DNA from: a virus
Length of the DNA: 27,393 nucleotides
Strand: one strand, 5' to 3'
IMG/VR virus record: IMGVR_UViG_3300017991_004451
Location: 1-27,393 of that record
Below the pieces are notes generated by a model. The model saw only the letters and a program-made list of their open reading frames with translations, searched no databases and was not told where the DNA came from. Every line of letters begins with the position of its first letter. Position 1 is the stretch's first letter. A program made the translations under genes and the position numbers. Shown here piece after piece: positions 6,540 through 24,643 of the stretch.

Positions 6540-6551
6540 ACTTGACCAGCT

Positions 6552-7103: not shown

Positions 7104-7114
7104 GGCCTCCCCTT

Positions 7115-7609: not shown

Positions 7610-7610
7610 T

Positions 7611-7970: not shown

Positions 7971-7988
7971 CACGCATCTCCTTCCGGC

Positions 7989-8369: not shown

Positions 8370-9655
8370 CAGCTCTTCCTCCTGGGGCCCCGCGATTGGG
8401 CGTCTGTAGGGACACACCCTCTGGATGCATGATGAGCCCCAGAGACGGACCGTGCCCCATCGTGGACGGCTGCCACGGCCCGCGTCCCTGAGTGGCGCGC
8501 CAGAGGGTCGTACTCCACGGTTGTCCAACTCACGCTGAGATAGGGATCGTTTGTTCCCTCAGCAGGATCGAGCGTTATGTACTGCCTGAGCCCGGGAGGA
8601 GACGGCCAGAAGTCTGCAAACGGCATGGCTTCAAAGTCGGTGTCGCCCTGTTTGTTGATCTTCGTGTCCGGCGCGGGTATGTCGGTTTGGATGTAACGTG
8701 CAGGGGGCATGTCCCATATCCCGGCGTCAAACACCGGTCCCAGGCCCCAATCATCTGTGTCAAGAGCGGCGCCTATCTTATCGTGGCCCCAGGCGACTAG
8801 AACCCTCGGTGTGTATCCGGACCCAACCTTCCCCTTTATGTAGAAGTTGAGCGTCGCACTCGTTACAGTCGCATCCGCACCAATCGCTGAAGTATCGAAG
8901 CCTCCGGGATAGCCCCTGGTAATCTGACTCGATCCGACATTGTTGTATCCTAGCGTGATCCAGGTCCTATTATTGTATGCGGTGTAGAAAGGAAGCGGGA
9001 ATGCCTGCACCTCGACGATGTAGCCATCTTGCGCCGCGCTTGACACGTAGAATGACTGGGTGGGGTCTATCCGTACCTTCGTCCTCGGCTTTACCTCAAC
9101 GAGCAACGCTCCGTTCTTAATGCCGTATTTGAGCCCTGAGTAATAGAGATCATCGACGGAGAAGTAGACGAGATCATCGAACCGAAAACCCAAGAGTTGA
9201 TTTGGAAGCTCCAATTCCGGCCCCGGATAATGCGCGTCCATGACAGGCAGCGGGCCTCGAACGGCGACGACATTCACGCTACCTTCCATCCGCCACCCAA
9301 AAGCCGTCATCATCGGCAGCGTGATCATCTCCACTCCAAACTTGCAGGAGTGGCGGCCAAGCTCGAACGTAGGCGTAGCCCTCAGACTCTTCCACAGCTC
9401 AGGTGTGACGTCTCTTTGTATCCCCCCTATTACCGCAACGGGTATCAACCTCAGCCATTGTGAACCCACCTTGAAACCCAGCTCCCCATTCTTGTGATAC
9501 GGCTCAGCCCGATCCCGGAAGTGCTTCCACGCGTTGCCAACGCGATCCCACACTTTTCTCAAGTGGAACTCGCCCTGGGCTATGCCTTCGCGGATCTCTA
9601 TCCTGCTTTTCTCGGTAAAATGCTCGCCGGAAGATGGCGTTATTCTGTCGTGCAT
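8369..9655 (-). CDS. Putative receptor-binding or fibre-like virion protein
   Basis: This 428-residue protein has no confidently recognised catalytic motif. Residues about 1-50 are helical and charged, and about 60-220 are mixed beta. About 225-385 contain a jelly-roll-like stretch, with GGFDTSAIGADATVTSATLNFYI resembling the '...FDTSSI...ITSATLxLY' motif of carbohydrate-binding/adhesive beta-sandwich domains. This suggests a host-recognition role. It lies between the portal gene (14 bases upstream) and the small Ig-like gene. The last 45 residues or so (after VEYDPL) are rich in Arg, Ala, Ser and His and look unlike the rest, possibly a recent extension or a frameshifted tail. The start ATG at 9655 has GAGG upstream. 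Confidence 0.6.
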   Translation of the reverse strand: MHDRITPSSGEHFTEKSRIEIREGIAQGEFHLRKVWDRVGNAWKHFRDRAEPYHKNGELGFKVGSQWLRLIPVAVIGGIQRDVTPELWKSLRATPTFELGRHSCKFGVEMITLPMMTAFGWRMEGSVNVVAVRGPLPVMDAHYPGPELELPNQLLGFRFDDLVYFSVDDLYYSGLKYGIKNGALLVEVKPRTKVRIDPTQSFYVSSAAQDGYIVEVQAFPLPFYTAYNNRTWITLGYNNVGSSQITRGYPGGFDTSAIGADATVTSATLNFYIKGKVGSGYTPRVLVAWGHDKIGAALDTDDWGLGPVFDAGIWDMPPARYIQTDIPAPDTKINKQGDTDFEAMPFADFWPSPPGLRQYITLDPAEGTNDPYLSVSWTTVEYDPLARHSGTRAVAAVHDGARSVSGAHHASRGCVPTDAQSRGPRRKS

Positions 9656-9668
9656 CTCACGTCCTCAG

Positions 9669-11249
9669 TCAGCGGCTTAACACAGGGAGCCGCCCCCGCG
9701 TCGCTCCCACCGCAACAGCGGCCTTGTTACCGTTTCCGTTCTCACCGGTGTCTTCCTCACCCGACTCTTCGCCGTCTTCCTCCTCCGGTTCCTCGCCCTC
9801 CTCGTCTTCCGGTTTCGTTTGAGTGGATGCGGTTTTCGCCGAGATCGAGATGCCATACTCTTCCGCCAGCTCTCGCTCACGCGCGAGCTCGGCGAAGACG
9901 TCCTCTAGGTCCTCACCCTTTTCAGCAAGGAATCCGGTGCGTGTGCCGAGACCGTTCTGTATCGAAATCACAGCGGCTTGGGCCTCTTTCTGCGGGTCGA
10001 TCCACTGCCAGCCGCGCGGCCGATGCCGGACGGCCATGTAACGGGAGGGATCGCGCGAGGCTAGCTTGAGAGCACCGGTAAGAAGTGCCATACCGAGCCA
10101 GGCGGAGTAGACCGGGCGGCGCCACATGTCGATGAAGTCGTGCTGTATCGAGCGCCAATCGTCGCGTTCGACCAGGGAGAAGCTGCGCATCGTGGAGTAG
10201 CTCACCCCTTCGGCGTCGTTGGCCAGCACGTTATAGAAGACGCTGAACCCCGAGGCGATTTTGCGCAGCATCTGCTTGATGAAGGCCGGGAACTGTCCAG
10301 TCGGATGTTCGGGCTCCCACGTCTTGAACTCATAGCCGTCCGGCACTATGTCGAACGTCCCCGGGTTGGCCTCCATCGTGGCGGGCGTCGTTTCGCCTGC
10401 CAGATCCCCCGCTACGGAGTCGGCCCTTTTCTCGAAGAGGCCCATCTTGGACGCACCGATCCGCGCGGCGACCGCCTCGCTCTCCTCGTAGGCGTTGAGC
10501 ATATGTGCCGGGACCATGACCGAGTGTACCCAGGTCACACCGCGCGTCTGGTTCACACGCTCGGGATCGTAGAGGTGTAGCATCTCGCCTGCGGGGACGA
10601 AATAGCGCTCACGCATGAGGTCAACGCCCGCGGCGTTCCACACCCAGTAGCCGACCGGCCGCGAGAGGGCATCTATCTCGACTCCCATCCGGATCTCGTT
10701 ATCAGCACCGCGGCGTGGCCGATTGAATGTCTCGTCGATCAAGTCTGCGTCGATGGGCTGAAGTGCTAGGCCGTAGCGGTTCCCCTCGAATCCTCTCCAC
10801 ACGCGCACGAACGCCTCGCCGTCGCACGCCATGGTCTTGAGTATCAGCTTCTCGAAGCGGCGCAGCGTGAGCTTCCCGTCCACCGTGACGGGCGAGCTCG
10901 CCCAGTCGTTCCATGCGGCCTCAATGGCGGCGTTGATTTCGGCGTCGGTTTCCCCGCCGTTTTTCACCTGGGCCTGAAGCTTGATGCCCATGGGCCCGAT
11001 GACGTTGTTCACGAGGAGACGGAAGTAGCGTTTGACGTAGGAGTTGTTGCGCCCGAGCTCGCGTGCCCGTGCGCGCAGTAGACGGATGTCGCCGCGGATC
11101 TCCTCATCCGCCGAGCGGGCCTGTGCAATCCAATCGAGTAGGAGCCGGTGCATACCCGCCCCGTCGAAGACGCTCCTTTGGCCCGTGATCTCACGCCACG
11201 CCAGGCGGAATGCACGGCCCAGGCGCTTATGCAAAGGCCGCCGCTTCAT
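9669..11249 (-). CDS. Phage portal protein, lambda family
   Basis: This 526-residue protein matches the lambda gpB-type portal family. It has NNSYVKRYFRLLVNNVIGP and GIKLQAQV near residues 70-95, LQPIDADLID, and the wing/stem region with FDIVPDGYEF. The clip/crown part includes DPQKEAQA and IQNGLGT. It would form the dodecameric ring at the capsid vertex through which DNA enters and to which the tail attaches. Residues about 475-505 form a striking acidic tail (PEDEEGEEPEEEDGEESGEE), followed by a basic end. The start ATG overlaps the upstream adaptor-like gene (ATGA). In lambda-like phages the terminase gene lies just upstream and the capsid downstream. Here no terminase is present and the capsid gene is on the other strand. 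Confidence 0.93.
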   Translation of the reverse strand: MKRRPLHKRLGRAFRLAWREITGQRSVFDGAGMHRLLLDWIAQARSADEEIRGDIRLLRARARELGRNNSYVKRYFRLLVNNVIGPMGIKLQAQVKNGGETDAEINAAIEAAWNDWASSPVTVDGKLTLRRFEKLILKTMACDGEAFVRVWRGFEGNRYGLALQPIDADLIDETFNRPRRGADNEIRMGVEIDALSRPVGYWVWNAAGVDLMRERYFVPAGEMLHLYDPERVNQTRGVTWVHSVMVPAHMLNAYEESEAVAARIGASKMGLFEKRADSVAGDLAGETTPATMEANPGTFDIVPDGYEFKTWEPEHPTGQFPAFIKQMLRKIASGFSVFYNVLANDAEGVSYSTMRSFSLVERDDWRSIQHDFIDMWRRPVYSAWLGMALLTGALKLASRDPSRYMAVRHRPRGWQWIDPQKEAQAAVISIQNGLGTRTGFLAEKGEDLEDVFAELARERELAEEYGISISAKTASTQTKPEDEEGEEPEEEDGEESGEEDTGENGNGNKAAVAVGATRGRLPVLSR

Positions 11250-11803
11250 CGTTCAAACCCCGGGCCGGTGAAGGAGACGAGGACCGACCGCGTGACGAAA
11301 TCAGGATTTTTGAGACGTGCCAGGCGCGACTCGAGGGTGCTCAGGAGATCGACCGCCTCCTTGACCGGTATCCTCGAGACAGCGCGCCCTGCGATCTGAT
11401 AGGACTCCATCCCAGCGGGGAGCCGACCCTCGATGTGCGCTTTGAGCGCGGCGATCGCGCGCTCAACCCATTCCTGTTCACTCCCTTCGGTGGCCTCGGC
11501 CAAGTTGGGAAGGACGGTGAGGACCCCCGAGGCGACCTCGTAGACTTCACCGTCCGGGTTTGAGACGCGCTCCACCCACTTGTATAGCCCTGCTGTGAAC
11601 GCGGCCTCGGTGTCGGTCGCATCGATCGTCACGACGAAGTCGTCGCCGTCCGCAACGGCTGTCTTAGCAAGAACGCTTGCGCCGGCCAGATGGAGTTTCA
11701 ATGTCCACCCAGAGCTTGCCGGGTAGTCGCTGAACCGCTTGCGGTAGCAGACGGTCGTGCCCGCGGCGAATGATTCGGGAAGTGCTGAAAGCTCTTGTGC
11801 CAT
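11246..11803 (-). CDS. Ig-like plus gpW-like head-tail adaptor fusion protein
   Basis: This 185-residue protein appears to have two parts. Residues about 1-105 form an Ig/BppU-like beta module: LPESFAAGTTVCYRKRFSDY, GWTLKLHL, AGLYKWVERV and SGVLTVLPN. Residues about 115-175 are helical with a short beta hairpin: AIAALKAHIEGRL, ESYQIAGRAVSRIPVKEAVDLL, STLESRLARL. The second part resembles the gpW head-completion layout, and lambda W lies directly before portal gene B, as here. The gpW assignment is by pattern and position, not certain. ATG at 11803 is preferred over the upstream TTG at 11839, which lies inside the divergent palindrome. It is the first gene of the leftward arm. Confidence 0.6.
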   Translation of the reverse strand: MAQELSALPESFAAGTTVCYRKRFSDYPASSGWTLKLHLAGASVLAKTAVADGDDFVVTIDATDTEAAFTAGLYKWVERVSNPDGEVYEVASGVLTVLPNLAEATEGSEQEWVERAIAALKAHIEGRLPAGMESYQIAGRAVSRIPVKEAVDLLSTLESRLARLKNPDFVTRSVLVSFTGPGFER

Positions 11804-11832
11804 AGTGCCACGTTGCCACCCCGCGATTTGGC

Positions 11833-11863
11833 CGACCAATCTAAATTAGATTTAGATTGGTCG
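11833..11863. promoter_or_regulatory. Perfect 13-bp inverted repeat in the divergent control region (candidate operator)
   Basis: The left arm CGACCAATCTAAA (11833-11845) and right arm TTTAGATTTGGTCG-like partner are best given exactly as TTTAGATTGGTCG (11851-11863). They are perfect reverse complements around the 5-base centre TTAGA. It is AT-rich inside GC-rich surroundings and lies midway between the leftward adaptor start (11803) and the rightward capsid start (11894). A second short inverted repeat, CGCGTTTTCGCG, follows at 11862-11873. Such symmetry fits a dimeric repressor or activator site controlling both arms. The minus strand also carries TCTAAT, a 5-of-6 match to a -10 box, inside the palindrome. 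Confidence 0.65.
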
Positions 11864-11893
11864 CGTTTTCGCGGATGCGTCACAACTGGTGTC

Positions 11894-13918
11894 ATGAGCA
11901 CGACAGCAGCGCTACGCGTGAAGACGCGCACCGTCAAGGTGCCGCGGATACAGTACCGGAACTTCGAGGTCGAAGTCGAAGCACGTGCGGACGGTGCCGA
12001 GGGAGAGGTGAGGCTCTATCCCCTTTCCTTCTCGAGCGAGGCCCCGGTGCGGCGCTTCTCCTGGGACACCTGGGAAGACTACGACGAGATCCTCTCCCAC
12101 ACCCCCGGCGATGTCGACCTGTCCCGCGCCAAAGACGGCCTGCCTCTCATCAAGTCGCATCAACGTCTTCTGCACTTCGGGTCGGTGAACGACGTCTCGC
12201 TTGACGAGAAGCGCAAGCGCCTTCGAGGCGTTGCGAACTTCTCGTCGATCCCGCTGGGACAGGAGCAGGAAACGATGCTGCGCGAGGGGCACACAAAGAC
12301 GGTCTCTGTCGGCTACCAAGTGCTCTCGATGGACATGATCTCCAAGGACAAGAAGACGGGCATCGCTACGTATCGCTGCCGCTGGATGCCCTACGAGGTG
12401 TCAACAGAACCCATTCCCGCCGATTTCAAGGTCGGCTTCGGCCGCACGCGTGCGGAAGCCCGCGCGGGAACCACGGACATAGATCTTGTCGAGTTCACGA
12501 TAGAAGAACCCGCGATGGAAGGAGAACGAGCCATGAGTGTCGAACCAGAAACCCCGCTCACCAAGGGCACTGATACCCCCGCGCTGCCAGAAGCGGTTGA
12601 ACCCAGTGCAGCGGCAGCACCGCCCGCAGCCGCTTCGCCGGCATCTGCACAAGTTGAAGTCACTGACCGCGGCGCCGAGGCGGCCGAGATCATGGAGATG
12701 GCCCAGGCACACGGCATGACCGACAAGGCAGCCGCGTGGATACGTCAGGGGCTCACGCCGGACAAGGTCTCAGGCGAGATCCTCAAAGCCGTGCGGACCC
12801 ACGGCCAGGGGCAACCCTCCGCCGAGTCGCTCGCCGCGATGCCGGCCAAGGACCGCAAGCGCTACTCCGTCCACCGCGCGATTCGGATGCAGGCTGAGAT
12901 CATGGACGGCAAGCGCAGCAGCTACGACGGACTTGAGGCCGAGGTGCACGAGGAGCTGGCCAAGCACCGCACCGGCGCAGACCACGGTGGGATACTTGTC
13001 CCCTGGCGCTTGCGCGATCAAGACGCGGGCCAAGAATGCGTGCTCGGCACGACCCAGCCCACGGGAGGCGCAACGCTCGTCGGCCAGCAGGTCATGCCTG
13101 ACATGATCGATCTACTGCGCAACCGCGCGCTTGTGCTCATCGCCGGCGCGCGGCTCTACCCTGGCCTCCAGGGCGTCGTCTACTTCAACAAGAAGACGGG
13201 TGCACCGAGCGTGACCTGGATGGAAGAGAACCCTGCCGCCGACGCGCCGCAGTCCGAGCCCGCTTACGGCTACGTGTCGCTCTCACCCAAAACCTTGATC
13301 GGCCAAGTCCAGATCCCACGGCAGTTGCTCGTTATGTCATCGATCGACGTAGAGGCGGATGTTCGAAACGACCTCGCGATCGGCCACGGCCTAGCGCTCG
13401 ATCTTGGCGCGTTGCACGGCAAGGGCACGGACAAGCAGCCGGTCGGCATCTACTCGGCGGCCGATGTGCAGTCGCACCCCGTGGGCGGTGTGCCAGACCT
13501 CGAGGACATCACAACGATGCCCGCACTGGTCGCGGATAAGAACGCCGACTTGGGCTCGCTCTCCTGGATGACTACCCCGCTCATGGCCGGAGTCCTCAAG
13601 CGCACACCGCTTGTCTCCGGCTACCCGGTCTTCCTGTGGGTGGGCACCTATCGCGACGGCGAGCTCGGGGGCTACCCGGGGCGCACCACGAACCAGATCT
13701 CGAAGACCCTGGGCGCAGGCAGCAACGAACACGGCCTCATCTTCGGCAACTGGAACGATCTGCTGGTCGGCATGTGGGGCAACGACTTTGAGATCGTGGT
13801 CGACGTGGTCACAAAGGCCGCACGTGGCCAGATCCTGATCACGAGCTATTCGATGGGCGACACGGTCGTGCGCCGTGGCGAGTCGTTCGTCAAGGGCACG
13901 GGCGCCACGCTGTCGTAA
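11894..13918 (+). CDS. Prohead protease-major capsid protein fusion (HK97 type)
   Basis: This 674-residue protein joins two proteins that are often separate. Residues about 1-210 match the S78 prohead protease. H89 in LIKSHQ and S138 in KTVSVGY are the expected catalytic pair, followed by YEVSTEPIPADF and VGFGR. Residues about 214-330 form an Ala/Pro-rich and then helical linker, a likely scaffold or delta domain. Residues about 340-674 match an HK97-fold major capsid protein: GATLVGQQVMPDMIDLLRNRA, SWMEENPAADAP-like text as WMEENPAADAPQSEP, PKTLIGQVQIPRQLLVMSS and TDKQPVGIY. ATG at 11894 is chosen because residues upstream of it run through the operator. Its own ribosome-binding site is weak, whereas an internal start at 12533 is strong. 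Confidence 0.9.
   Translation: MSTTAALRVKTRTVKVPRIQYRNFEVEVEARADGAEGEVRLYPLSFSSEAPVRRFSWDTWEDYDEILSHTPGDVDLSRAKDGLPLIKSHQRLLHFGSVNDVSLDEKRKRLRGVANFSSIPLGQEQETMLREGHTKTVSVGYQVLSMDMISKDKKTGIATYRCRWMPYEVSTEPIPADFKVGFGRTRAEARAGTTDIDLVEFTIEEPAMEGERAMSVEPETPLTKGTDTPALPEAVEPSAAAAPPAAASPASAQVEVTDRGAEAAEIMEMAQAHGMTDKAAAWIRQGLTPDKVSGEILKAVRTHGQGQPSAESLAAMPAKDRKRYSVHRAIRMQAEIMDGKRSSYDGLEAEVHEELAKHRTGADHGGILVPWRLRDQDAGQECVLGTTQPTGGATLVGQQVMPDMIDLLRNRALVLIAGARLYPGLQGVVYFNKKTGAPSVTWMEENPAADAPQSEPAYGYVSLSPKTLIGQVQIPRQLLVMSSIDVEADVRNDLAIGHGLALDLGALHGKGTDKQPVGIYSAADVQSHPVGGVPDLEDITTMPALVADKNADLGSLSWMTTPLMAGVLKRTPLVSGYPVFLWVGTYRDGELGGYPGRTTNQISKTLGAGSNEHGLIFGNWNDLLVGMWGNDFEIVVDVVTKAARGQILITSYSMGDTVVRRGESFVKGTGATLS
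12519..12535 (+). promoter_or_regulatory. Internal ribosome-binding site and in-frame start in the protease-capsid gene
   Basis: AAGGAG (12519-12524) lies 8 bases before an in-frame ATG (12533-12535). This is exactly between the protease domain and the Ala/Pro-rich linker, at residue 214 of the full product. Initiation here would give a 461-residue scaffold-plus-capsid protein lacking the protease. The spacing is ideal and much better than at the upstream start. Use of the site is inferred. Confidence 0.6.
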
Positions 13919-13936
13919 GCCGGAGGGATGGATCGC

Positions 13937-14269
13937 ATGGCGGATAAAGAGAAGCTGACGATCGAGATCACGACGGGCCACTGCCTGGGCGGCGAAGGCA
14001 ACGACGTCTATCCGGGCCAGGTCCTCGTTGCACCTAAGGATCTCTCGATCGCCGACGCACGGAAGAAGGTCCGAATGGGGTACGCGCGCGTCATCCCGAA
14101 CGCGCCGGAGCCCGAACCAGATAAGAAAACGTCAGGCACCACAGTCGTCACTCACCAGGATCCGGCGCTTGAAAGCCGCGATCCTGAAACCGAAGCGCCC
14201 GACGCGGTATCACCGCACACGAACCCACGTAGAGACCGGCGTACTGCCGGCCCGAGGAGAGGCAAATGA
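13937..14269 (+). CDS. Small head-associated protein of unknown function
   Basis: This 110-residue protein has a compact N-terminal part (residues about 1-60) with TGHCLGGEGNDVYPGQVL and ARKKVRMGYARVIP. A Pro/charged-rich, probably disordered tail follows. Similar small proteins commonly follow the capsid gene in siphovirus head modules, but no biochemical role is known to me. ATG at 13937 is chosen because GGAGGG (13922-13927) is 9 bases upstream; an ATG at 13928 would touch that site. It starts 18 bases after the capsid stop codon and overlaps the next gene by four bases. Confidence 0.7.
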   Translation: MADKEKLTIEITTGHCLGGEGNDVYPGQVLVAPKDLSIADARKKVRMGYARVIPNAPEPEPDKKTSGTTVVTHQDPALESRDPETEAPDAVSPHTNPRRDRRTAGPRRGK

Positions 14270-14649
14270 ACCTGCTAAATGCACTATCACAGGCCTATGT
14301 GCTGAGCCTTGCTGAAGCCGATGAACGCACGACTACCTTGACCGGCACGGGAATAGACGTCCTCGATTACGAGGGCGTCTGCCTCGCAATTCTGAATTCC
14401 GGGGCGGCATCCGCTGGCACGACCCCAACGCTGAACGTCAAGCTCCAGCACTCCGATGACGACTCGACTTACGCGGACGTCACAGATGGTGCCTTCACCG
14501 AGGTGACCGATGCCGCCGCGGTAGTCGAAGCGCTCAAGTTCAACGTGTCAGACCTCAAGCGGTATCTCCGCGTCATCGGGACTATCGCGGGTAGCGGCGC
14601 GACCTTCGACTTCGGCGTGGAGTTCGTGGGGATCAAGAAGGCGAGCTAA
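14266..14649 (+). CDS. Putative beta-sandwich head decoration or completion protein
   Basis: This 127-residue protein is predicted to be mainly beta, with TLNVKLQHSDDDSTYADVTDG, LKFNVSDLKRYLRVIG and FDFGVEFVGIKK. This LQHSDD...KRYLRV pattern is common in small structural proteins encoded between capsid and head-closure genes of siphoviruses. A capsid decoration or accessory role is likely but not proved. ATG overlaps the previous stop codon (ATGA) and the stop codon lies 3 bases before the next gene. Confidence 0.65.
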   Translation: MNLLNALSQAYVLSLAEADERTTTLTGTGIDVLDYEGVCLAILNSGAASAGTTPTLNVKLQHSDDDSTYADVTDGAFTEVTDAAAVVEALKFNVSDLKRYLRVIGTIAGSGATFDFGVEFVGIKKAS

Positions 14650-14652
14650 GCG

Positions 14653-14961
14653 ATGTCCTTTCTCGGCGAGTCCGACATCGCGGCGATGCTGGCCGATTTG
14701 TCAGCCGCTGAGGGGGCCGTCGACGTGACGATCGGCGACACCACCGTGACCGGCCTCCTCGACCAGGAGGCCGTTGAGCTTCTAGGCGGCGAGATGCCAG
14801 GCGTCATTGCGGCGGACGAGATGGTGCACATCCGCACGGGCACGCTGCCCGGGCTCGTATCGGGAGTGGCGATCACAGTGGGCGGGACCAGCTACAAGGT
14901 TCTGAAGATCATGCCCTACGGCGATGGCGCGATGACACGGATTGCACTGAGGAAGCCATGA
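14653..14961 (+). CDS. Head-tail joining protein (gpFII-like)
   Basis: This 102-residue protein ends with VAITVGGTSYKVLKIMPYGDGAMTRIALRKP, the beta-rich ending typical of the lambda gpFII-like head-tail joining family. The helical beginning (ESDIAAMLADLSAAEG) also fits. It would bind the connector and provide the platform for the tail. Length and position, between head accessory genes and the tail-terminator gene, agree with the call. It overlaps the next gene by four bases (ATGA). Confidence 0.72.
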   Translation: MSFLGESDIAAMLADLSAAEGAVDVTIGDTTVTGLLDQEAVELLGGEMPGVIAADEMVHIRTGTLPGLVSGVAITVGGTSYKVLKIMPYGDGAMTRIALRKP

Positions 14962-15428
14962 GCACGATCCGCGAACAGATCGTCGCGGCGGCAACCTCCG
15001 CGCTTAACACTGACCGGCCGGCTGAAGTGCCGGAGTTCGTGAGAACTCGGCTCGACTCCCCGGGGCCTGAGCAGCTCCCGGTCAATACGGTCTACCAGGC
15101 TTCAGAAACCGTAGCGCCCATGCACGACAGCAAAGAAGGCCGTTCAAGCCGCGGCCCGATCGTGAGGCGAACACTTGTACTGAAGATCGAGTGCATAACG
15201 AAAGCAGACGGCGCTACTGAGCCGGACAAGGCAGCCGATCCGACGATCGCCTGGGCGACAAAGACACTCGCTGCGGCTGGGAGATTCAATGACCTGGCAA
15301 ATAACCCGGCCGACGAAACGGGAACGCAGTTCGAGTACGAGCAGGGGGAAACCTCCTTCTGCCGGGCGACGATGACGTTTCATATCGAATTCCAATCAAA
15401 GACGGACGACGCCGAACAGTTGACGTAG
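14958..15428 (+). CDS. Tail terminator/tail completion protein (gpU- or gpZ-like)
   Basis: This 156-residue protein starts with a helix (STIREQIVAAATSALN) followed by alternating beta strands (RTLVLKIECITKA, GETSFCRATMTFHIEFQSK). This is the usual pattern of tail-terminator or neck proteins that cap the tail tube. It lies between the joining protein and major tail protein genes, as expected. The particular subfamily (U or Z) is not decided. It starts by four-base overlap with the previous gene and ends 16 bases before the major tail gene. Confidence 0.65.
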   Translation: MSTIREQIVAAATSALNTDRPAEVPEFVRTRLDSPGPEQLPVNTVYQASETVAPMHDSKEGRSSRGPIVRRTLVLKIECITKADGATEPDKAADPTIAWATKTLAAAGRFNDLANNPADETGTQFEYEQGETSFCRATMTFHIEFQSKTDDAEQLT

Positions 15429-15444
15429 GCGTAAGGAGGAAATC

Positions 15445-16212
15445 ATGTCCACTGACGTTGACGGCAGCAAGCTACTGCTCGGCAGGGGGAAGGTCTACTT
15501 TGACCGGTTCGACGGGAATGGCGCCCGTCAAGGTGAGCGCTTCCTCGGTAACTGCTCGGCCCTCGAGGTGACTCCCACCGTAGAGGACATCAAGAAGTAC
15601 TCGAGCGCCGCTGCGGCCGGAGACTTGATCGCCTCCGATATCCTGCGGACAACGCTGGCGCTCCGGGTCGTCGCAGACGAATTCAAGAAAGAGAACCTCG
15701 CGATGGCCCTATTTGGCGACAACGCCACCCTTTCACAGACAGGTGCGTCGGTCACCGACGAGTCGATCCAGAGCGTAAAGCAGGGCTACTACTACCCGAC
15801 GGTTTATCGCCAGATAAGCTCGGTGGTTGTCACAAGCGATCCGGCGGGCACGACCTACGTCGAAGGGACCGACTATAGCGTGGATGCCGTAAGCGGCCGG
15901 ATCTACATCATCCCGGGCGGCGGGATTTCGGATGACGACGATATCCTCGTGGACTACGACTACGCGACGATCGCACTGAATGTCACGCGCGGTATGAATA
16001 CGACCTCGGTTAAAGGTTACCTCCGGTTTGTCGGTGATCCCGCTCGTGGGCCTAAGCTCGAACTGGAGATCTGGCGCGCATCGATCCACGCGGACGGCGC
16101 GATAGGGTTCATTTCCGATGAGTACGCTAACTTCACGATGACCGGTGACATCGAGTCCGATGCCACTAACCACCCGAACGAGCCGCACTACAGGCTGATC
16201 GAGAACACGTAA
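15445..16212 (+). CDS. Major tail tube protein
   Basis: This 255-residue protein begins LLLGRGKVYFDRFD and continues with GERFLGNCSALEVTPTVEDIKKYSS, the usual opening of siphovirus major tail subunits. The rest is beta-rich, with a repeated 'TYVEGTDYSVD...GRIYIIPGG' turn, ending in NFTMTGDIESD. Hexamers of it would stack into the tail tube. It has the strongest ribosome-binding site seen in the right arm: AAGGAGG at 15433-15439, 5 bases before ATG. This suits a high-copy structural protein. The stop codon overlaps the next start (TAATG). Confidence 0.85.
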   Translation: MSTDVDGSKLLLGRGKVYFDRFDGNGARQGERFLGNCSALEVTPTVEDIKKYSSAAAAGDLIASDILRTTLALRVVADEFKKENLAMALFGDNATLSQTGASVTDESIQSVKQGYYYPTVYRQISSVVVTSDPAGTTYVEGTDYSVDAVSGRIYIIPGGGISDDDDILVDYDYATIALNVTRGMNTTSVKGYLRFVGDPARGPKLELEIWRASIHADGAIGFISDEYANFTMTGDIESDATNHPNEPHYRLIENT

Positions 16213-16790
16213 TGAGAACGCCATCGGGGGACGTCGAAAAGCACGTGATCGGCGGGCGCACGTTTCTGACCGTCCGAGAATCAACGGTAGCGCAGGACTT
16301 TCACTTCCTGGGCCTCGTTTCGCGCGCGGGGATCGACCGGATCACCATGGGTGAGAACGAGCAGCCGGAGGATTTTGCGCGAAGACTGATGGAACTCGCG
16401 GTCCGTAGCGGCGCGGTCCTCGAGCTCATGGGATGCCTGATCCTTCCCGAGGACCACGCGCCGAAGGACGGTGAGCCCGGTGAGGCCTGGACGCTTGAGA
16501 TGTGCAAGGAGACCGCGCGCTTCCTGGGCGGCTTGAAATCGGAAGAGGACAAGGCCGCCATTCGCGGGTTGGTGCTGTCGCTTCTCATCTCTTTTTTCGA
16601 GTCAGGGATCGTCTCTTTGTGGAGTTCGAAGACATCCTCCGGCGAGGCGATCCCGGGCAAATCAGGACAGACGGACGCTACGGGGCGTGGACGGAGCTCG
16701 TCTACGAGATCGCCGGGGGCGACCACGAGTACGCAGAGCGAATCAGCCAATGGCCGTTGCGGGTCGCCCTTACCTCCTTCCGCCGTCTGA
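16212..16790 (+). CDS. Tail assembly chaperone, unshifted product
   Basis: This is the zero-frame product of 192 residues. It lies between major tail and tape measure genes, the standard place for tail chaperones (lambda G). Residues 1-127 look like a normal protein, with VIGGRTFLTVRESTVAQDFHF, EDFARRLMELAVRSG and GLKSEEDKAAIRGLVLSLLIS. From about residue 130 the zero frame becomes Ser/Thr/Gly-rich and unlike a fold, as expected if the true continuation is in the -1 frame. The start ATG overlaps the tail gene stop codon. The unshifted form is expected to be the abundant one by analogy with lambda gpG. Confidence 0.7.
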   Translation: MRTPSGDVEKHVIGGRTFLTVRESTVAQDFHFLGLVSRAGIDRITMGENEQPEDFARRLMELAVRSGAVLELMGCLILPEDHAPKDGEPGEAWTLEMCKETARFLGGLKSEEDKAAIRGLVLSLLISFFESGIVSLWSSKTSSGEAIPGKSGQTDATGRGRSSSTRSPGATTSTQSESANGRCGSPLPPSAV

Positions 16791-16933
16791 TGATACAGGC
16801 GGCGATTGAGGATTACAGACACAGGCTCCTGTGCTGGTGCGTAACCGCTCCGCATTACTCAAAGGCGTCACGGCCCAGGCCTCCGGCACTTCCCGATATC
16901 TTAAGAGGACGACCCAGAGATGCCTCCTCCTGA
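16212..16933 (+). CDS. Tail assembly chaperone, -1 frameshift fusion (GT-like)
   Basis: A -1 shift at 16592-16598 joins residues 1-129 of the chaperone to 111 residues of the overlapping frame, giving about 240 residues. The second frame continues RVRDRLFVEFEDILRRGDPG, YGAWTELVYEIAGG and QWPLRVALTSFRRLMIQAA, which reads like a real folded protein. It ends at 16933, overlapping the tape measure start by 14 bases. In known siphoviruses the shifted fusion binds the tape measure protein and recruits tail subunits. A simple sequencing error cannot be excluded, but the exact slippery heptamer and following stem argue for programming. Confidence 0.72.
16592..16654 (+). promoter_or_regulatory. Programmed -1 ribosomal frameshift signal
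   Basis: The heptamer T TTT TTC (16592-16598) is in the zero frame after TCT and allows both tRNAs to re-pair on TTT after a one-base backward slip. Six bases downstream, GGGATCG (16605-16611) is perfectly complementary to CGATCCC (16648-16654). Inside the loop a second hairpin, CCTC-CGGC-GAGG, lies at 16636-16647 and could stack on the first. Spacing and stem fit known stimulatory elements. Confidence 0.72.
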
Positions 16934-19490
16934 CGTAAGAGTCCGGCTTTCCGCCGAAGGCGTGGCGGAAGTCGTCGGCGCGCTGAAGAAAGTTCAAACC
17001 GAAAGCGATCGCACTGCGGCCAAGCAGTCGCGCGGGTTCGGGCGGCTTAACAGTGTGCTCGGCTCCACGACGAACCTTCTGGCAGGCCTCGGCATCGCAG
17101 TCGGGTTCGTACAGCTTAAGGGCCTTATCTCCAACGCTATCGAGGCGGCCGATCAGATAAACAAGCTCGGTGCCAAGGTAGGTGCCTCCAGCCGCAATCT
17201 CTCTGCCCTCCAGCTGGTGGCACGCACAGCCGATTCCGACCTCAATCAGCTCGGTTCAGCGCTGGTTCGCATGAACAAGAACATCGGCGACGCACAGGCC
17301 GGCATCCCCACGATGGTCGCAGCGTTCCGGGATCTCGGCCTCGAGATGGCGGATTTCAAAGGCAAGGATTCAGTCGAGGTCTTTGAACTGATCTCCAAAC
17401 GGATCATGGCCCTGCCTGATTCCATCCGCCAGGGCCGTTCGGCCATCCAGATCTTCGGGCGCGCCGGCGCGATGCTCCTGCCGACGATGCGCGCACTGGC
17501 CGACGAGGGCCTGGGCAGCGTGATCGAGCGCGCAGAGGAGCTCGGCGTCTTGATAGACACCGACCTTGCCGCGGCCGCCGAGAAGATCAAAGACGACGTC
17601 GAGATCCTAAAGATGCAAAGCGAGGGCCTGGGTACCCGGTTCGTTTCCGGCTTCGGGCCGCAGATGAGTCAAGCCTTACAAGCTCTAAGCGGCGATCTTT
17701 CACAAACCACCGAGGCCTGGAGGGATTTCGGAACCGGGATCGGCGTCGTGATGAAGTTTGTCATCGGGGTGGTCTCCGGTGCTTTCGATCTCATCGGAAC
17801 GTTGGCGGCAAACGGAGTCTTTGCGATCCAGCGCTATGCGACGGCCCTCTGGCTCGTGGCTCGGGGGCGGCTGGATGAGGCTAAGGAATACTTTGAGAAC
17901 ACGAATGAAGCTCTAATGCAATCACAGTCCGAGTTGTATGAACGGATGCGCGGACGCTTCCAACTAGTGTTCACAATGCCCGAGCCGCCAGCGGGCACCA
18001 CAGGTGCCGGAGCCCCGACGGGCGAGCCCGCCGAGGACCCGGCCGAGCTCGCTGCGCGCCGCGCCCAGGCCATGCAAATGATCCTCGAGCGCGAGCTTGC
18101 ATTGACGAGGCTGCAGGGGACGCTGCGCAATAACGAGGAAAGGCGCGCATTTGAACAGGGCCTCAAGGACATCCACGCCTACTACGACGAGCGTCGCCGT
18201 ATCGCAGAGGATGCGTTCGCCAAGACCGAGGAGGTTCTCCAGAAAAAGCGCGAGGCGCTCGCTTCTGAAGTAGATCCCGCCAGACGCCTCCAGGAAGAAG
18301 GCAAGATCGAGGACCAGCTTGCCCGGGCGCGGCTCGAGCGTGAAGAGGCGATTGCGGCTGCAACCTACGAGGAGGCTGAGACCGTCCGCAAGCTCAACCT
18401 CGAGCGACTGGATTTCGAGAAGAAGCTCCTCGAGGCACAAGGTAGACGAACAGAGGCGGCGCTGCTTGGGATAGATGAGGAGATCAGAAAGACCGACATA
18501 CTCCTTCGCAAGCAGGGCGTCGGGGATCAGGAGCGCCAGGAGGCATTGGACCGCCTGCGGGCCTCCCTTGAGGCGGGAATCAACTTCGACGAGGCGAAAC
18601 GGCAGGCCGACGACGCCCTTGCCTCCCTGGACGCGGCGCGCGCCGAGATAGATGCCAAGGTCGCTGCGGGGCTCTTGTCGCAGTTTGAAGGCGAACAGCG
18701 GCTATTGATGATCGAGGAAGACCGCCTCGATCTCCTCCAGGGCCTCGCTGAAGGGCTCGAAGAGGCCGCGCTTGCAACCGGCGACCCCGAGAAGATCGCG
18801 CAGGCGCAAGCGTTCGCGGAGGCCATCCGCGACATCGGCTTCTCCGTTGAAGCAAGCAAGGTGTCATTCCAGAACTTCAAGGCGGCGGCGATCGACGCGG
18901 GCATCGATGCACTGGCAAACTTCTTCGATACCGGAATCACGGGTGCTAAGTCGTTCCGTGACGCGTTCCGCGAAATGGGCGCGGGAGTCATAAATACGCT
19001 TCGCCGGATGGCGGCCGAGCTCCTGGCGGTCGCGATCATGAAGAAGATAGCGGGGATCTTCGGGTTTGGGTTCTCAGGCGGCGGCGAGGTCGGGGCGGAG
19101 GCCAAAGCCACCGGAGGCCTCCTCGGGGGGCGCGGAACGGGCCGGTCAGATTCGAACCTAGCCTGGTTCTCAAGGGGAGAGTACCTGGTGCGCGCCGCAG
19201 TCGTCGAGCAACCCGGGGTCCTTGCGCACCTCGATGACCTCAACCGCCGTGGCACGCGGGCGATCGTCAGTCCTCCCGCGCTGGCACAAATCAAACCCGG
19301 CGGATTCGCGGAAGGCGGGCTGATCGGTGCGGGCGGGCCAGAGGCGGTAGCAGGCGGCGACAGCCGGCTCTTTGTGGGCCTCGAGGAAGGCCTGGTTCTG
19401 CGGGCCCTCGAGACCTCGGCAGGACAAAGGATACTGGTGAAATCGATCGGCAATAACCGACGCGCAGTTCGCTCGGCGCTGGGAACATGA
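16920..19490 (+). CDS. Tail tape measure protein
   Basis: This 856-residue protein has the usual tape measure layout. An N-terminal region carries a hydrophobic segment (LLAGLGIAVGFVQLKGLI) and ADQINKLGAKVGASSRNLSALQ. A second hydrophobic stretch lies near 270-305. A long charged coiled coil spans about 370-640 (repeated EERRAFEQGLKDIH- and RLEREEAIAAA-type text). The Gly-rich end has GFGFSGGGEVGAEA, ATGGLLGGRG and WFSRGEYLV, a typical lambda-gpH-like tail. If the known rule of about 0.15 nm per residue holds, the tail would be roughly 125-130 nm long. It follows the frameshifted chaperone with a 14-base overlap. No lytic transglycosylase or peptidase motif was noticed. Confidence 0.9.
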   Translation: MPPPDVRVRLSAEGVAEVVGALKKVQTESDRTAAKQSRGFGRLNSVLGSTTNLLAGLGIAVGFVQLKGLISNAIEAADQINKLGAKVGASSRNLSALQLVARTADSDLNQLGSALVRMNKNIGDAQAGIPTMVAAFRDLGLEMADFKGKDSVEVFELISKRIMALPDSIRQGRSAIQIFGRAGAMLLPTMRALADEGLGSVIERAEELGVLIDTDLAAAAEKIKDDVEILKMQSEGLGTRFVSGFGPQMSQALQALSGDLSQTTEAWRDFGTGIGVVMKFVIGVVSGAFDLIGTLAANGVFAIQRYATALWLVARGRLDEAKEYFENTNEALMQSQSELYERMRGRFQLVFTMPEPPAGTTGAGAPTGEPAEDPAELAARRAQAMQMILERELALTRLQGTLRNNEERRAFEQGLKDIHAYYDERRRIAEDAFAKTEEVLQKKREALASEVDPARRLQEEGKIEDQLARARLEREEAIAAATYEEAETVRKLNLERLDFEKKLLEAQGRRTEAALLGIDEEIRKTDILLRKQGVGDQERQEALDRLRASLEAGINFDEAKRQADDALASLDAARAEIDAKVAAGLLSQFEGEQRLLMIEEDRLDLLQGLAEGLEEAALATGDPEKIAQAQAFAEAIRDIGFSVEASKVSFQNFKAAAIDAGIDALANFFDTGITGAKSFRDAFREMGAGVINTLRRMAAELLAVAIMKKIAGIFGFGFSGGGEVGAEAKATGGLLGGRGTGRSDSNLAWFSRGEYLVRAAVVEQPGVLAHLDDLNRRGTRAIVSPPALAQIKPGGFAEGGLIGAGGPEAVAGGDSRLFVGLEEGLVLRALETSAGQRILVKSIGNNRRAVRSALGT

Positions 19491-19491
19491 G

Positions 19492-21090
19492 ATGTTTGAG
19501 ATTGGAACTGCTACAGACTACGTTGACCTACTCGACCGGCTTAATACATTCCTCACGGCCAAGGGATCAGCCTTCGGGTTGTCGTACTCGGGCACCGGCG
19601 ATGGCGAGCTGACCGATTACTCCGGCGGCGCCTCCTCCGTGGCCGAGACGTTTACGATTACCGCCACCTCCCCCACAGTCTTTGACGTCGTCGGGAGCGT
19701 TAGCGGCGATATCGGTGACGCTACGGTGGGCACTCCCTTTGTCCATGCCAAACTCGAGTTCACCATTACGGCGGGCGGGACCGCCTTTGTCGCGGGCGAT
19801 ACATTTACGATCTCGACTGCGCCCAAATGGACATCTCACCGCAAGACGCTCGGCGCTCGAGTACTCGCCACGCAAGGAAATAGCGGCTCGCTCGCCGCGC
19901 AGAATGTGGTCGATGGAAAGCAAACCCAGACCGGGCGTAACTGGCAGGTAGGCGCGCCGGTGACGCTGCCACAAGAGCTAGAGTTCACGCTCTTTGAATC
20001 CGAAACGATCACGCAGTATCAGATGGCGGCGTTCTCGTCCTCAGGCTACACGAATATGCCGAAGTCCTGGGTGTTCCAGTATTGGGATGGGGATTCATGG
20101 GAGGACCTCCACACAGTATTCGACTATACCGGTTGGACCCCGAGCGGCGTTGTCACCTTTGATATCCCTGTGCCTCAAGCGGCCACGAAGTATAGGCTCC
20201 ACATGACCGCGATCCCCTCCACGACGCTCCAGATCGGTGCGGTCCGGCTTTTGCGATCATCCGGTATCGACGTCGCCTTCAGCCAGGTCATTTGGGAGGC
20301 CCCGGGGAACGACGGTGATGAAGAGATCTTCTGCGGCGCGCACGCCTTCGAAAGACAGGACGCGGACTATTTCGACTGGGAGCTGTGTGCACTCGACGGC
20401 TACGTGGCGGGAGAATTCTGGCGTAACCAGACCGGCTTCCACGGCATGAGCTTTGTCCCCCTTTGGGATGACTCGATTCCCTACTGGTTCATCTGTAACG
20501 GCCGACGTGCGATCGTTGTTGCGAAGATCGACATCCAGTACGAGGTCGCTTACCTGGGGCTCCACGCGCCCTATTTCTCGCCGAATCAGCTCCCCTACCC
20601 CATGGTGCTCGGGGGATCGATGGCGTTCGGGCAAGTATTCCCGCAGTGGGATTCCACCGAATGGCGATGGAACAACGCCACGGACAAGCATCGCGCCTTC
20701 ACGCACTCAGATCCCAGTAACCCCGCGACGGTCTATCCCGAGAACCTCCAGCTGCGTGCCCGCTCATGGGACGGCAGCTGGATCGGTTATGAATCGAGTA
20801 AACAGGACAGTATCAGCACACCTCCGGCAGCCGGGCGTGCGGTGGTCTGGCCCTATAGATGCGGGCTGTCCTTGCTCGATCCGAACTTGGACGGGGGCTA
20901 CTCCTTGTGGCCCATCATCATGATAGACAGCACGCCCAACACGATCGGACAACTCGACGGCGTCCGGTGCGTGAGCGGCCAGGGCGTCACTGCTGAAACC
21001 CTCATCCGGATCGGCTCGATCGACTGGATGGTAGTTCCCAACATCTTCCGGACCGACCGCGATGACTTCTTCGCGGTGTCCTTGGACTGA
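19492..21090 (+). CDS. Tail/virion structural protein with discoidin-like domain
   Basis: This 532-residue protein begins with a helix (TATDYVDLLDRLNTFLTAKG) and a beta insert with TITATSPTVFDVVGSVSG and FTITAGGTAFVAGDTFTIS. Residues about 137-255 read as an F5/8 type C (discoidin) carbohydrate-binding domain: NVVDG, WVFQYWDGDSWEDLH, AATKYRLHMTA and LQIGAVRLL. The last part ends with IRIGSIDWMVVPNIFRTDRDDFFAV, an ending found in phage virion proteins. The next gene product has a related opening and ending, so the two look like paralogues. A distal-tail role with glycan binding is inferred. ATG begins one base after the tape measure stop codon. Confidence 0.65.
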   Translation: MFEIGTATDYVDLLDRLNTFLTAKGSAFGLSYSGTGDGELTDYSGGASSVAETFTITATSPTVFDVVGSVSGDIGDATVGTPFVHAKLEFTITAGGTAFVAGDTFTISTAPKWTSHRKTLGARVLATQGNSGSLAAQNVVDGKQTQTGRNWQVGAPVTLPQELEFTLFESETITQYQMAAFSSSGYTNMPKSWVFQYWDGDSWEDLHTVFDYTGWTPSGVVTFDIPVPQAATKYRLHMTAIPSTTLQIGAVRLLRSSGIDVAFSQVIWEAPGNDGDEEIFCGAHAFERQDADYFDWELCALDGYVAGEFWRNQTGFHGMSFVPLWDDSIPYWFICNGRRAIVVAKIDIQYEVAYLGLHAPYFSPNQLPYPMVLGGSMAFGQVFPQWDSTEWRWNNATDKHRAFTHSDPSNPATVYPENLQLRARSWDGSWIGYESSKQDSISTPPAAGRAVVWPYRCGLSLLDPNLDGGYSLWPIIMIDSTPNTIGQLDGVRCVSGQGVTAETLIRIGSIDWMVVPNIFRTDRDDFFAVSLD

Positions 21091-21094
21091 GACC

Positions 21095-22144
21095 ATGGCA
21101 GCTTCGTATCAAACGGGCAGCGCGTCCTCCCCGACAAATCTCCTTCAGACATTGGTGACCTGGCTAGTGGCGCAAAGCTGGACGCAGGACTCAAACGGTG
21201 CTGAGGGAACCGGATGGCGCTCGCATCTTCACAAGGGAAGCCAGTACGTCCACTTCCGCGCGGCAAACAACGAGCAAATCTGGCCTCGAAATGAGCCGCC
21301 CACCTATTATCACGACTATGGCGATGGCGGCTACGGGATCGGGATGTACCTCGGGACCGGCTACAGCGGCGCGTTCGATTGGGACAAGCAGGAGGGAGGC
21401 CCGATCCGCCCGGGCGAGACGATCGGGGCAAAGATCGGCGTGGGCATGAATCTTCCCGCCTCGGCCGGTGATTATCACTTCTTCGATGACGGCAACGACA
21501 ACATTACAGTGGTCGTCGAGCGATCGCCCGGGATCTTCACGCACATGGGTTGGGGCCCGGCGCTGGCCGCGGCCGGACAGCCGGAGGACTTCTGGTACTT
21601 CTTCGGTAGCGCGAGTGCCTTCCTAAACACCGATGACGACCTGCTCACCGGCGATCGCTACGGTCGGGATTTGTCGGCGCTACCCCCCTTCTCACACGCC
21701 GACAAGGACAACGGCAGCTATCAAAGCGCGGGGCAATATGTGCACGCGACTGCCTTCGTCCGTGTCGATTCAGGCACATTCGGCGAGCGATGGATTTCCA
21801 ACTGCGGCTATGCCGCAGGCGGTTATGGCTACACCGGGAGGTTCATGCGTAACGCGCTAAACCTGCACCCGGGCACGCAGGGCCTTCTGGATGAGGGCGA
21901 GTTCCCCGGCTATGAGTACATCCACGACCGCATTTATCAGTCCGCATTCGCGGGCGCGCTGCTGCTCCCGCTACATTCTTACGTTCTCACTGACCCCGAC
22001 GCGCGCTGGGCTCCCATAGGCTATCCGCCGACCGTCTTCTGGTGCGAAGCGGTCGGAAACGGCTACTCACAGAACCAGATCTACCAGGTCGGTGGCCTCG
22101 ACTACATGCTCTTCCCCCATTTCGCGGTAAGAAAGGCGGCCTGA
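21095..22144 (+). CDS. Tail/virion structural protein, paralogue of the preceding one without the discoidin domain
   Basis: This 349-residue protein opens with SSPTNLLQTLVTWLVAQSWTQDS and closes with IYQVGGLDYMLFPHFAV, matching the opening and closing patterns of the preceding 532-residue protein. It lacks the discoidin-like insert. The middle is rich in Gly, Tyr and Trp (YYHDYGDGGYGIGMYLGTG, GNDNITVVVE, WGPALAAAG), as is usual for virion surface proteins. ATG at 21095 is preferred because an ATG at 21062 would overlap the upstream gene by 29 bases. Placement after the tape measure implies a tail-tip component. Function is inferred. Confidence 0.65.
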   Translation: MAASYQTGSASSPTNLLQTLVTWLVAQSWTQDSNGAEGTGWRSHLHKGSQYVHFRAANNEQIWPRNEPPTYYHDYGDGGYGIGMYLGTGYSGAFDWDKQEGGPIRPGETIGAKIGVGMNLPASAGDYHFFDDGNDNITVVVERSPGIFTHMGWGPALAAAGQPEDFWYFFGSASAFLNTDDDLLTGDRYGRDLSALPPFSHADKDNGSYQSAGQYVHATAFVRVDSGTFGERWISNCGYAAGGYGYTGRFMRNALNLHPGTQGLLDEGEFPGYEYIHDRIYQSAFAGALLLPLHSYVLTDPDARWAPIGYPPTVFWCEAVGNGYSQNQIYQVGGLDYMLFPHFAVRKAA

Positions 22145-22146
22145 TA

Positions 22147-23220
22147 ATGCCCACCGGCATTCTCGTAGCGGGGCCCGAGTCGCTTGATCCCAACGGGGCC
22201 CAGCAACTCCAGGACGCGATACTTCCTCCGCCTACGGACCCGGCGTGGTCGAAGGCGGCAATGGCGGAGGTGGGTACATATGGCTCGCTGGCTGATCCGC
22301 GCCCGGATGCATTCGCAAAGACCGGGGTCTGGGCGCCGGCGCATGACCTCGCATGCCATGACAAGATCCACGTGATCCCGCGGAACCGCGACGTGGGCTT
22401 CGTGGTCTCCGAGCAGGAACATCTCGTTGAGGTCTGGAACGCATTCCTGACGCGCGCAATGATCCTTGATTCGATCGGCCTGACGGGGCCGGCTGGTGTC
22501 GAGGTGATCGACCATCTCGGCCAGCCGGCGCATTACCCGGCCTCGCAGTCAGAGATCTATACCTACAAGGTGCTCCCTGAAGGGCCTCCCACGATAGACA
22601 ACATGATCACGTGGGTCTTCTTGACGATCGACTCGAGCGGAACCGACCACCGCGTCGTGGGGTTTCGAATCATCCCGTACCCGTTCCCTCCGAACTGGCG
22701 GCACCCGGTAGTCGAGGACTACGGCTACATGACGGACATCATGACCTCTTTCCGCGGGATGGAGCAGCGCGTCCAGCTGCGCGCGGTGCCCGTCGGCTCG
22801 CTAAGCTATACCTCACTTCTTAACGAACCGCGCGATGCGCAAATGGCAGTCGCGATCCTGTTCGGCAACCAGCCGCGCGCCTTCGGGGTGGCCCGCTGGC
22901 AGTTCCGGCGCACGCTCACAACCGATGCCAACCCGCACGACACAGAGATCTTCCTGGACACCACGGACATCCCGTTCCAGACCGGGGGCTTGGTGTTCTT
23001 GTGGACTGATCCCTACACATGGGAAGCGCAGACGATAGACACCGTCTTGAGTGACCGCCTCGTGCTCGAGGTGGGTCTTGAAAGGTCATGGGCGGCCGGG
23101 GTGACCGTTGTACTCCCGATGGTCGTGGGCAGGCTATCCCCCGACGAGGCCGTGACCTGGGAGAATCTCCTGATCGCCTCGACCGCCCTTACATTTGATA
23201 TCGATGGATTCAAGCCATGA
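22147..23220 (+). CDS. Distal tail-like structural protein
   Basis: This 357-residue protein has a mostly unrecognised first half. The second half has MTSFRGMEQRVQLRAVPVGSLSYTSLL, a pattern common in distal tail proteins of siphoviruses, in which a conserved EQRxxLR stretch follows an aromatic segment. A beta domain follows (TEIFLDTTDIPF, GGLVFLWTDPYTWEAQTID, DRLVLEVGLERSW). ATG at 22147 is chosen because it follows the previous stop codon by two bases; an upstream GTG- or ATG-led extension to 22042 would be buried in the previous gene. It overlaps the next gene by four bases (ATGA). Confidence 0.62.
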   Translation: MPTGILVAGPESLDPNGAQQLQDAILPPPTDPAWSKAAMAEVGTYGSLADPRPDAFAKTGVWAPAHDLACHDKIHVIPRNRDVGFVVSEQEHLVEVWNAFLTRAMILDSIGLTGPAGVEVIDHLGQPAHYPASQSEIYTYKVLPEGPPTIDNMITWVFLTIDSSGTDHRVVGFRIIPYPFPPNWRHPVVEDYGYMTDIMTSFRGMEQRVQLRAVPVGSLSYTSLLNEPRDAQMAVAILFGNQPRAFGVARWQFRRTLTTDANPHDTEIFLDTTDIPFQTGGLVFLWTDPYTWEAQTIDTVLSDRLVLEVGLERSWAAGVTVVLPMVVGRLSPDEAVTWENLLIASTALTFDIDGFKP

Positions 23221-23840
23221 GCACTTACGATGGCTACGACGTCCTTGAGCTAAACTACAACCGCCTCGGCGCGTTCCAGGAGACGCATCACCGCAAGTTC
23301 GTCCTGCTGGATTCCAAGACGGGCAAACGCGACTCCGATGAACAGTCCCCCGCCCCCGCTCCGGTGCGGCCTTTCACCTGGACCGCCCTTGGAAGCTCAG
23401 AGATCGCCGCAATGTTGGCATTCCTCGACGCGCGCAAGGGCCGCGCGGTCCCCTTCTGGCTCCCGAGCTATCAGTGGGACCTCTCCCTCGCGCAGGACGT
23501 GATCCAGAACCAGACGATCGTCACCATCCACTGGGTGCGCTATGTCCAGCAGATGTGGGGAACGACCGGGGCGCGGAGACATATCGCCGTCTGGACACTG
23601 GGATTTCCCGAGATGGACTTCTATAGGATCTCCGACGCGGTCGATCCGGGGGACTACCTCACCGAAACTTTGACACTCGATCCGCCTGCGATACGCGATT
23701 ACCCCGTGGCGCAAAGGATCTTGTCATTCAATAAGCTCTGCCGGCTCGACGAGGACGAGGTGGAGGTATCTTACCCGCGCGTGGGCGTTGCCGAGGCCAC
23801 GATCCGCGTGCGCGAGCTGCCACTGGAGGCACCGCTTTGA
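23217..23840 (+). CDS. Distal tail protein (DUF2460/GTA gp12-like position)
   Basis: This 207-residue protein has SSEIAAMLAFLDARKGRAVPFWLPSYQWDLSL, matching the 'Gly-Arg...PFW-P...D' signature of phage distal tail proteins. A beta domain follows, with EMDFYRISDAVDPGDYLTETLTLD, then KLCRLDEDEVEVSYPRVGVAEATIRVREL. Its place before a BR0599-type gene copies the order gp12-gp13-gp15 of gene transfer agents and many siphoviruses. It may be the second half of a protein that is single elsewhere, since the upstream gene carries the related EQRVQLR part. It is coupled to both neighbours by short overlaps. Confidence 0.62.
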   Translation: MSTYDGYDVLELNYNRLGAFQETHHRKFVLLDSKTGKRDSDEQSPAPAPVRPFTWTALGSSEIAAMLAFLDARKGRAVPFWLPSYQWDLSLAQDVIQNQTIVTIHWVRYVQQMWGTTGARRHIAVWTLGFPEMDFYRISDAVDPGDYLTETLTLDPPAIRDYPVAQRILSFNKLCRLDEDEVEVSYPRVGVAEATIRVRELPLEAPL

Positions 23841-24643
23841 CCGATTACGACACAAGGGAGATACATCGATTTGAGGGCCAACCTGTCGAATGCTACAAGT
23901 TCACCCAGGGCGACAACGCGTGGTTTTATACGTCCGCCGACCGCCAGGTGGTTCTTCCCGCGGCGGGTACGTTTGAGCCAGCCATCATTACCCGCGGCGA
24001 GCTGGATTTCTCTCATGAAGATACCGGTGAGATGATCGACTTCACGGTGCCCCGCAGTAACCCGGTCGCGGCGCTCTTCATCGGGGATCTGCCCTCCACC
24101 CCTATCGGGATAACGGTCTACAGGGCACATCGCGGCGACGAGGACGCCACGATCGTGATCTTTAGCGGGAAGCTCATCCGCGCCCGGTTCGAGGAATCGC
24201 AAGCGATCTTGACCGGCGCGAGTTTGATGTCGGTGTTGGACCGCGCGGTGCCTCCGCTGGGGATGCAAACGCCTTGTAACCACGTCCTCTATTCCCAGGA
24301 ATGCGGGGTGAACCCCACGGTCTGCCGCGATGGGGTCGTTGTGGGCACGGTAAGCGGTGCGACTGTCACCTCGGACGATTTTGCGGCGCGCGCGGACCAG
24401 TGGTTTCGCGGCGGCCGGCTCGAGACGTCCGAAGGCGAGACCAGGTTCATTGCCGATCACGTGGGGGACACCATTGTCCTCCTGTCCGCACTGCCCGGGC
24501 TTGCCCCCCTTAACGTCGTCTGGGCCTATTGGGGATGCGATCACCTCGAGGATACTTGCGAGTCGAAGTTCAGCAATCTGGCGAACCACCTCGGGTGGGC
24601 GCGCCTGCCAGGCCGCAATCCCTTTGACGGGAGGATCGACTGA
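23837..24643 (+). CDS. Phage BR0599-family/DUF2163 tail hub protein
   Basis: This 268-residue protein matches the BR0599/DUF2163 family (RcGTA gp13-like). The N-terminal beta part includes CYKFTQGDNAWFYTSADRQV, TFEPAIITRGELDFSHED and the VYRAHRGD strand. The C-terminal part has the family cysteine pattern: TPCNHVLYSQECGVNP, then WGCDHLEDTCESKFSNLANHLG and RLPGRNPF. In GTAs these proteins form the iron-sulfur- or disulfide-stabilised hub below the tail tube. The four conserved cysteines are present. The start is TTG at 23837 overlapping the previous stop codon (TTGA), an uncommon start codon, and the stop codon overlaps the next ATG. Confidence 0.85.
   Translation: MTDYDTREIHRFEGQPVECYKFTQGDNAWFYTSADRQVVLPAAGTFEPAIITRGELDFSHEDTGEMIDFTVPRSNPVAALFIGDLPSTPIGITVYRAHRGDEDATIVIFSGKLIRARFEESQAILTGASLMSVLDRAVPPLGMQTPCNHVLYSQECGVNPTVCRDGVVVGTVSGATVTSDDFAARADQWFRGGRLETSEGETRFIADHVGDTIVLLSALPGLAPLNVVWAYWGCDHLEDTCESKFSNLANHLGWARLPGRNPFDGRID

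Follow-up and report, generated by a model that had tools for sequence, protein, structure and literature searches.

Programmed -1 ribosomal frameshifting in tail-assembly chaperone genes is a well-known trick of tailed phages. In phage lambda, the G/G-T region yields two products at about 30:1, and this ratio is crucial to tail assembly (PMC5009743). In a GeneTack study, frameshifting in a cluster of HK97-like chaperones was measured at 6-7% (PMC3711429). Here, we analyzed a 27,393-base virus DNA (the whole record, referred to as the window), in which a putative tail-assembly chaperone appears to use -1 programmed ribosomal frameshifting; from the sequence, we put the probability of this reading at roughly 0.95. 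The case is an ordinary one of low surprise and leaves the known mechanism unchanged.

The zero frame of the chaperone begins at ATG 16212, and the stop codon of the -1 frame lies at 16931-16933 (Table 1). Joining the first 129 residues to the -1 extension gives a fusion of 240 aa. The gene order typical of a chaperone was found, with the phrog_807 major tail protein on the 5' side and tape measure families on the 3' side. Several other named tape measure families also match 16920..19490, a gene whose first 14 bases are shared with the end of the -1 frame. Synonymous sites are constrained in the last -1 codons (103-110, 16895-16933) too, which overlap the start and the ribosome binding site of the tape measure gene. 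Elsewhere in the window, the minus strand (3945-11839) carries portal, head-tail joining protein, holin, endolysin, and DNA methyltransferase-like genes, and the plus strand (11795-27093) carries capsid and tail genes, so that the structural modules are divergent. At 11795-13918, a single 707-aa ORF has matches in families of both kinds, protease and major head protein (phrog_617 and phrog_4523, the latter named 'major head and protease protein'), and is read as a fused protease-capsid gene.

Table 1. Features of the chaperone locus in the window.
Feature	Coordinates	Strand	Basis
Major tail protein gene, upstream neighbour	15445..16212	+	phrog_807, E = 1.3e-52
Chaperone zero-frame ORF (putative), short form, 192 aa	16212..16790	+	129 codons to the shift, 63 after
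Slippery heptamer T_TTT_TTC	16592..16598	+	phase checked; same heptamer in 23/30 loci
-1 frame extension, 111 aa + stop	16598..16933	+	frame reading, homologues
6-nt spacer GAGTCA	16599..16604	+	constant at 6 nt across the T_TTT_TTC and T_TTT_TTT loci
Stem 5' arm GGGATCGTCTC	16605..16615	+	fold, pair counts, synonymous constraint
Loop with predicted inner hairpin, weakly conserved	16616..16643	+	window fold
Stem 3' arm GAGGCGATCCC	16644..16654	+	fold, pair counts, synonymous constraint
Tape measure protein gene	16920..19490	+	phrog_13338, E = 1.5e-47

Codons 128-129 of the zero frame are TTT TTC in the context TCT TTT TTC, and the preceding T at 16592 places them in the phase for a -1 slip. 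The initial annotation had proposed a TTTTTTC heptamer in the right phase and a GGGATCG/CGATCCC stem after a 6-base spacer; both lie exactly at the positions it gave. The perfect 7-bp core pairs GGGATCG (16605-16611) with CGATCCC (16648-16654), and the stem is in fact longer than proposed: with one U.G pair it reaches 11 bp, GGGAUCGUCUC/GAGGCGAUCCC (16605-16615/16644-16654), with a fold of -24.9 kcal/mol (z = -3.5 against 200 shuffles). In a census of the window covering 25 in-phase X_XXY_YYZ heptamers within 23 likely genes, the chaperone site ranked first in the length of its perfect stem (7 bp) and of the -1 ORF that follows. When the downstream region was shuffled by mononucleotide, 1.7% of the shuffles had a perfect stem of at least 7 bp. 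A search of Rfam gave no match.

Related loci were searched for with a 6-member alignment, and 30 loci cover the junction, namely the window and 29 others from viral contigs and genome bins. Some are near-duplicates: the chaperones of L014 and L016 are identical in the compared stretches, L047 and L048 are nearly identical, and L008, L009, and L059 are close. First-half identity to the window drops to about 30% in the most distant locus. The two halves join at the same codon, with the second in the -1 frame of the first, in all 30 loci; a version fused in one frame, which would have contradicted the initial annotation, was found in none of them. Every locus has a canonical in-phase X_XXY_YYZ heptamer at the junction. 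The conservation of the heptamer in homologues, suggested earlier as a check, was thus borne out for T_TTT_TTC in 23 loci including the window, and other canonical heptamers stand in the remainder (T_TTT_TTT in 3, C_CCT_TTT in 4). In the T_TTT_TTT loci (L020-L022), the upstream bases also form C_CCT_TTT, so that both slip sites are held in tandem, CCCCTTTTTTT (L020:4540-4549). In L035, L045, L047, and L048, GTC replaces TTC as the last codon, and the sole canonical heptamer is C_CCT_TTT one codon upstream (L035:1857-1863, with the same position in L045 and L047/L048); from this upstream site the spacer is 9 nt. The differences in slip site between relatives look like natural turnover of the frameshift site. 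Only three relatives are in genome bins (L058, L059, and L060), whose MAGs are assigned to Candidatus Krumholzibacteriia, an unclassified bacterium, and Candidatus Eisenbacteria; these assignments hint at the host group.

Downstream stimulatory RNA structures are common, not universal, in chaperone -1 frameshifts. At this locus, the 11-bp stem is kept across the family: 95.9% of base-pair cells are paired among 22 distinct sequences, compared with 30-61% when the partner is slid by 1-3 columns. Most changes in the stem lead to G.U pairs, as in CGATCCC to CGGTCCC opposite GGGATCG, and L052 has GGGATTG with CGGTCCC. At two pairs both sides have changed, in a single sequence each. L014 carries GGGACCG/CGGTCCC in place of GGGATCG/CGATCCC, and its -1 protein changes there from GDP to AGP (D to G), indicating that pairing was kept at the cost of an amino acid. 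Covariation of the stem is modest, about 23 of 500 shuffles being as high. The stem is weak in L053 and L060, with 2-3 mismatches, and no equivalent stem is evident in L019. The initial annotation had also placed a second hairpin in the loop. It is predicted in the window fold, but across homologues its 4-bp helix is 86% paired, shows no covariation, and is left out of the RNAalifold consensus; since it is only partly kept and does not covary, we leave the inner hairpin outside the claim.

The -1 frame shows synonymous identity of 1.45-1.9x expectation over codons 1-24 and about 0.9-1.1x over codons 25-48, though the zero frame is open to codon 63. By column, codons 1-19 exceed codons 20-100 (permutation p = 5e-5), and the constraint is highest on and near the stem arms. 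Synonymous constraint is therefore concentrated on the 19 codons that carry the stem. Taken together, the two-frame architecture, the slip site, and the paired stem are conserved, and the split, heptamer, and spacer recur with the stem in the 29 other loci, which strongly supports the earlier reading of a frameshift in the tail chaperone.

The virus, an uncultured tailed phage, thus very probably produces its chaperone in two lengths, by a -1 slip at TTTTTTC assisted by the hairpin. Most ribosomes would stay in the zero frame and stop at 16790, giving the 192-aa protein. A minority would be held up by the 11-bp stem-loop, 6 nt further on, while their P-site and A-site tRNAs occupy TTT TTC; these ribosomes would move back onto TTT TTT and read the -1 frame to 16933, giving the 240-aa fusion. 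If the two forms act as lambda gpG/gpGT do, each would bind the tape measure protein, and recruitment of the tail tube protein would fall to the extended form. The ribosomal shift, its efficiency, and the role in tail assembly are what we infer from these features.

A fusion could also arise by programmed transcriptional slippage on the T run, with mRNAs that have gained or lost a base encoding it. Six T's in a row occur in 26 of the 30 loci. Six T's are, however, a short run for polymerase slippage, and the four loci that have only CCCTTTTG (four T's) keep an in-phase tandem-slip heptamer; the conserved spacer and downstream stem, moreover, suit the needs of ribosomal frameshifting. Because the C_CCT_TTT group has a run of just four T's, we consider transcript slippage very unlikely. 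Less probable still is that the locus encodes two separate proteins, the -1 ORF being initiated at a start codon of its own within the upstream gene. The window does have a GTG in the -1 frame 32 codons upstream of the junction, which would open a possible 143-aa ORF, but this start is not common to the relatives. In L012, the -1 frame is closed by a stop 20 codons before the junction, with no start in between, which excludes independent initiation as a shared mechanism; it would also leave the conserved heptamer, spacer, and stem unexplained. Finally, homopolymers such as this T run are error-prone in some sequencing chemistries, but an assembly or sequencing indel in a gene that is truly in one frame, named earlier as a possible refutation, has a negligible chance, since the split recurs in the same direction and at the same codon in 29 further loci, which come from various metagenomes and from three genome bins. 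Ribosomal frameshifting remains the preferred reading.

The short form runs 63 codons past the shift, as the initial annotation had counted, and the -1 frame runs 111. The contrast drawn there with lambda G, which ends 5 codons past its shift, holds as a number, but it is not distinctive. Within the family, the tails measure 13-68 codons, and 31-68 in nearly all relatives. In cultured phages whose major tail protein is related, predicted tails after canonical in-phase heptamers are 26 (Klebsiella N133), 31 (PS6), 31 (DLP_5), and 38 codons (AhaSv). Synonymous shuffling of the -1 frame gave a tail no shorter than the natural one in 13-89% of cases, a share that varied by locus. A long tail is thus what coding in the other frame gives and is no new feature in itself, and we rejected its length as a sign of selection. 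A weak residual synonymous excess is present over -1 codons 20-63 (p = 0.001). Because each -1 wobble base is also a second codon position in the zero frame, strong selection on the tail would suppress changes at these bases over its whole length. It is unlikely, in our view, that the tail is a functional, selected C-terminus exclusive to the short form; if it were, the frameshift would exchange one C-terminal segment for another.

The identity of the protein was addressed by sequence and fold searches. PHROG and Pfam gave no match for the two chaperone frames of the window or for 8 family members, the PDB gave no sequence match for the chaperone protein, and tblastn of the fusion against cultured phages returned only noise (E > 1). 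Profile comparison by hhalign with chaperones from phages whose major tail proteins are related was negative (about 0.2% probability). The predicted model of the first 129 residues has a pLDDT of 88.7. Its fold search against BFVD placed several annotated chaperones among the top matches, but weakly (E about 0.02-0.4, TM below 0.5). Two of the matches, of 155 and 279 aa, come from Arthrobacter phage Kitkat, and others bear the name tail assembly chaperone. The PDB fold search found nothing, and that of the -1 extension model was uninformative. As a family match is absent and the fold matches are weak, the assignment as a tail-assembly chaperone rests on position, architecture, and frameshift, with weak support from the modelled fold.

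If so, the locus brings in a chaperone family of divergent sequence, whose U_UUU_UUC and stem cassette is clean and conserved, together with a natural case in which some relatives have a C_CCU_UUU slip site one codon upstream. Among the papers searched, none described a UUUUUUC/TTTTTTC chaperone site in a phage. The analysis suggests a likely function for proteins that no PHROG or Pfam model names. It also carries a warning, as gene callers will report only the short form with its 63-codon tail and overlook the extension.

Among described systems, lambda G/G-T offers the fullest comparison. As in the window, the gene is flanked by those of the major tail protein (V) and the tape measure (H), a -1 shift occurs at a canonical heptamer, and the extension overlaps the tape measure start. 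The zero-frame length of lambda G is similar (140 aa), with the slip site at codon 133 compared with 127 in the window. The heptamers differ (GGGAAAG in lambda, TTTTTTC in the window), and the two chaperones have no detectable sequence kinship. The window has an evident conserved stem after its heptamer, the comparison with lambda being limited to heptamer, lengths, and gene order.

The same gene order is found in cultured phages whose major tail protein is a relative, namely Xanthomonas AhaSv, Marinobacter PS6, Klebsiella N133 (Casjensviridae), and Stenotrophomonas DLP_5 (Delepquintavirus). In the records of Curvibacter phage PCA1 (L064) and Acidovorax phage ACF1 (L067), the major tail protein and tape measure genes have no separately annotated chaperone gene between them. 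The in-phase heptamers of the cultured set are GGGAAAC, TTTTTTG, GGGAAAA, and TTTTTTT, which are predictions and not annotations. Its -1 extensions span 93-111 aa and its zero-frame tails 26-38 codons, and one neighbour is annotated as a 'pre-tape measure frameshift protein'. By profile comparison, these chaperones show no detectable relation to the chaperone family of the window. The HK97-like cluster likewise has a chaperone frameshift; it belongs to a different phage group, and the family libraries gave no match for the chaperone of the window. Its measured 6-7% may serve as a guide to the efficiency to be expected here.
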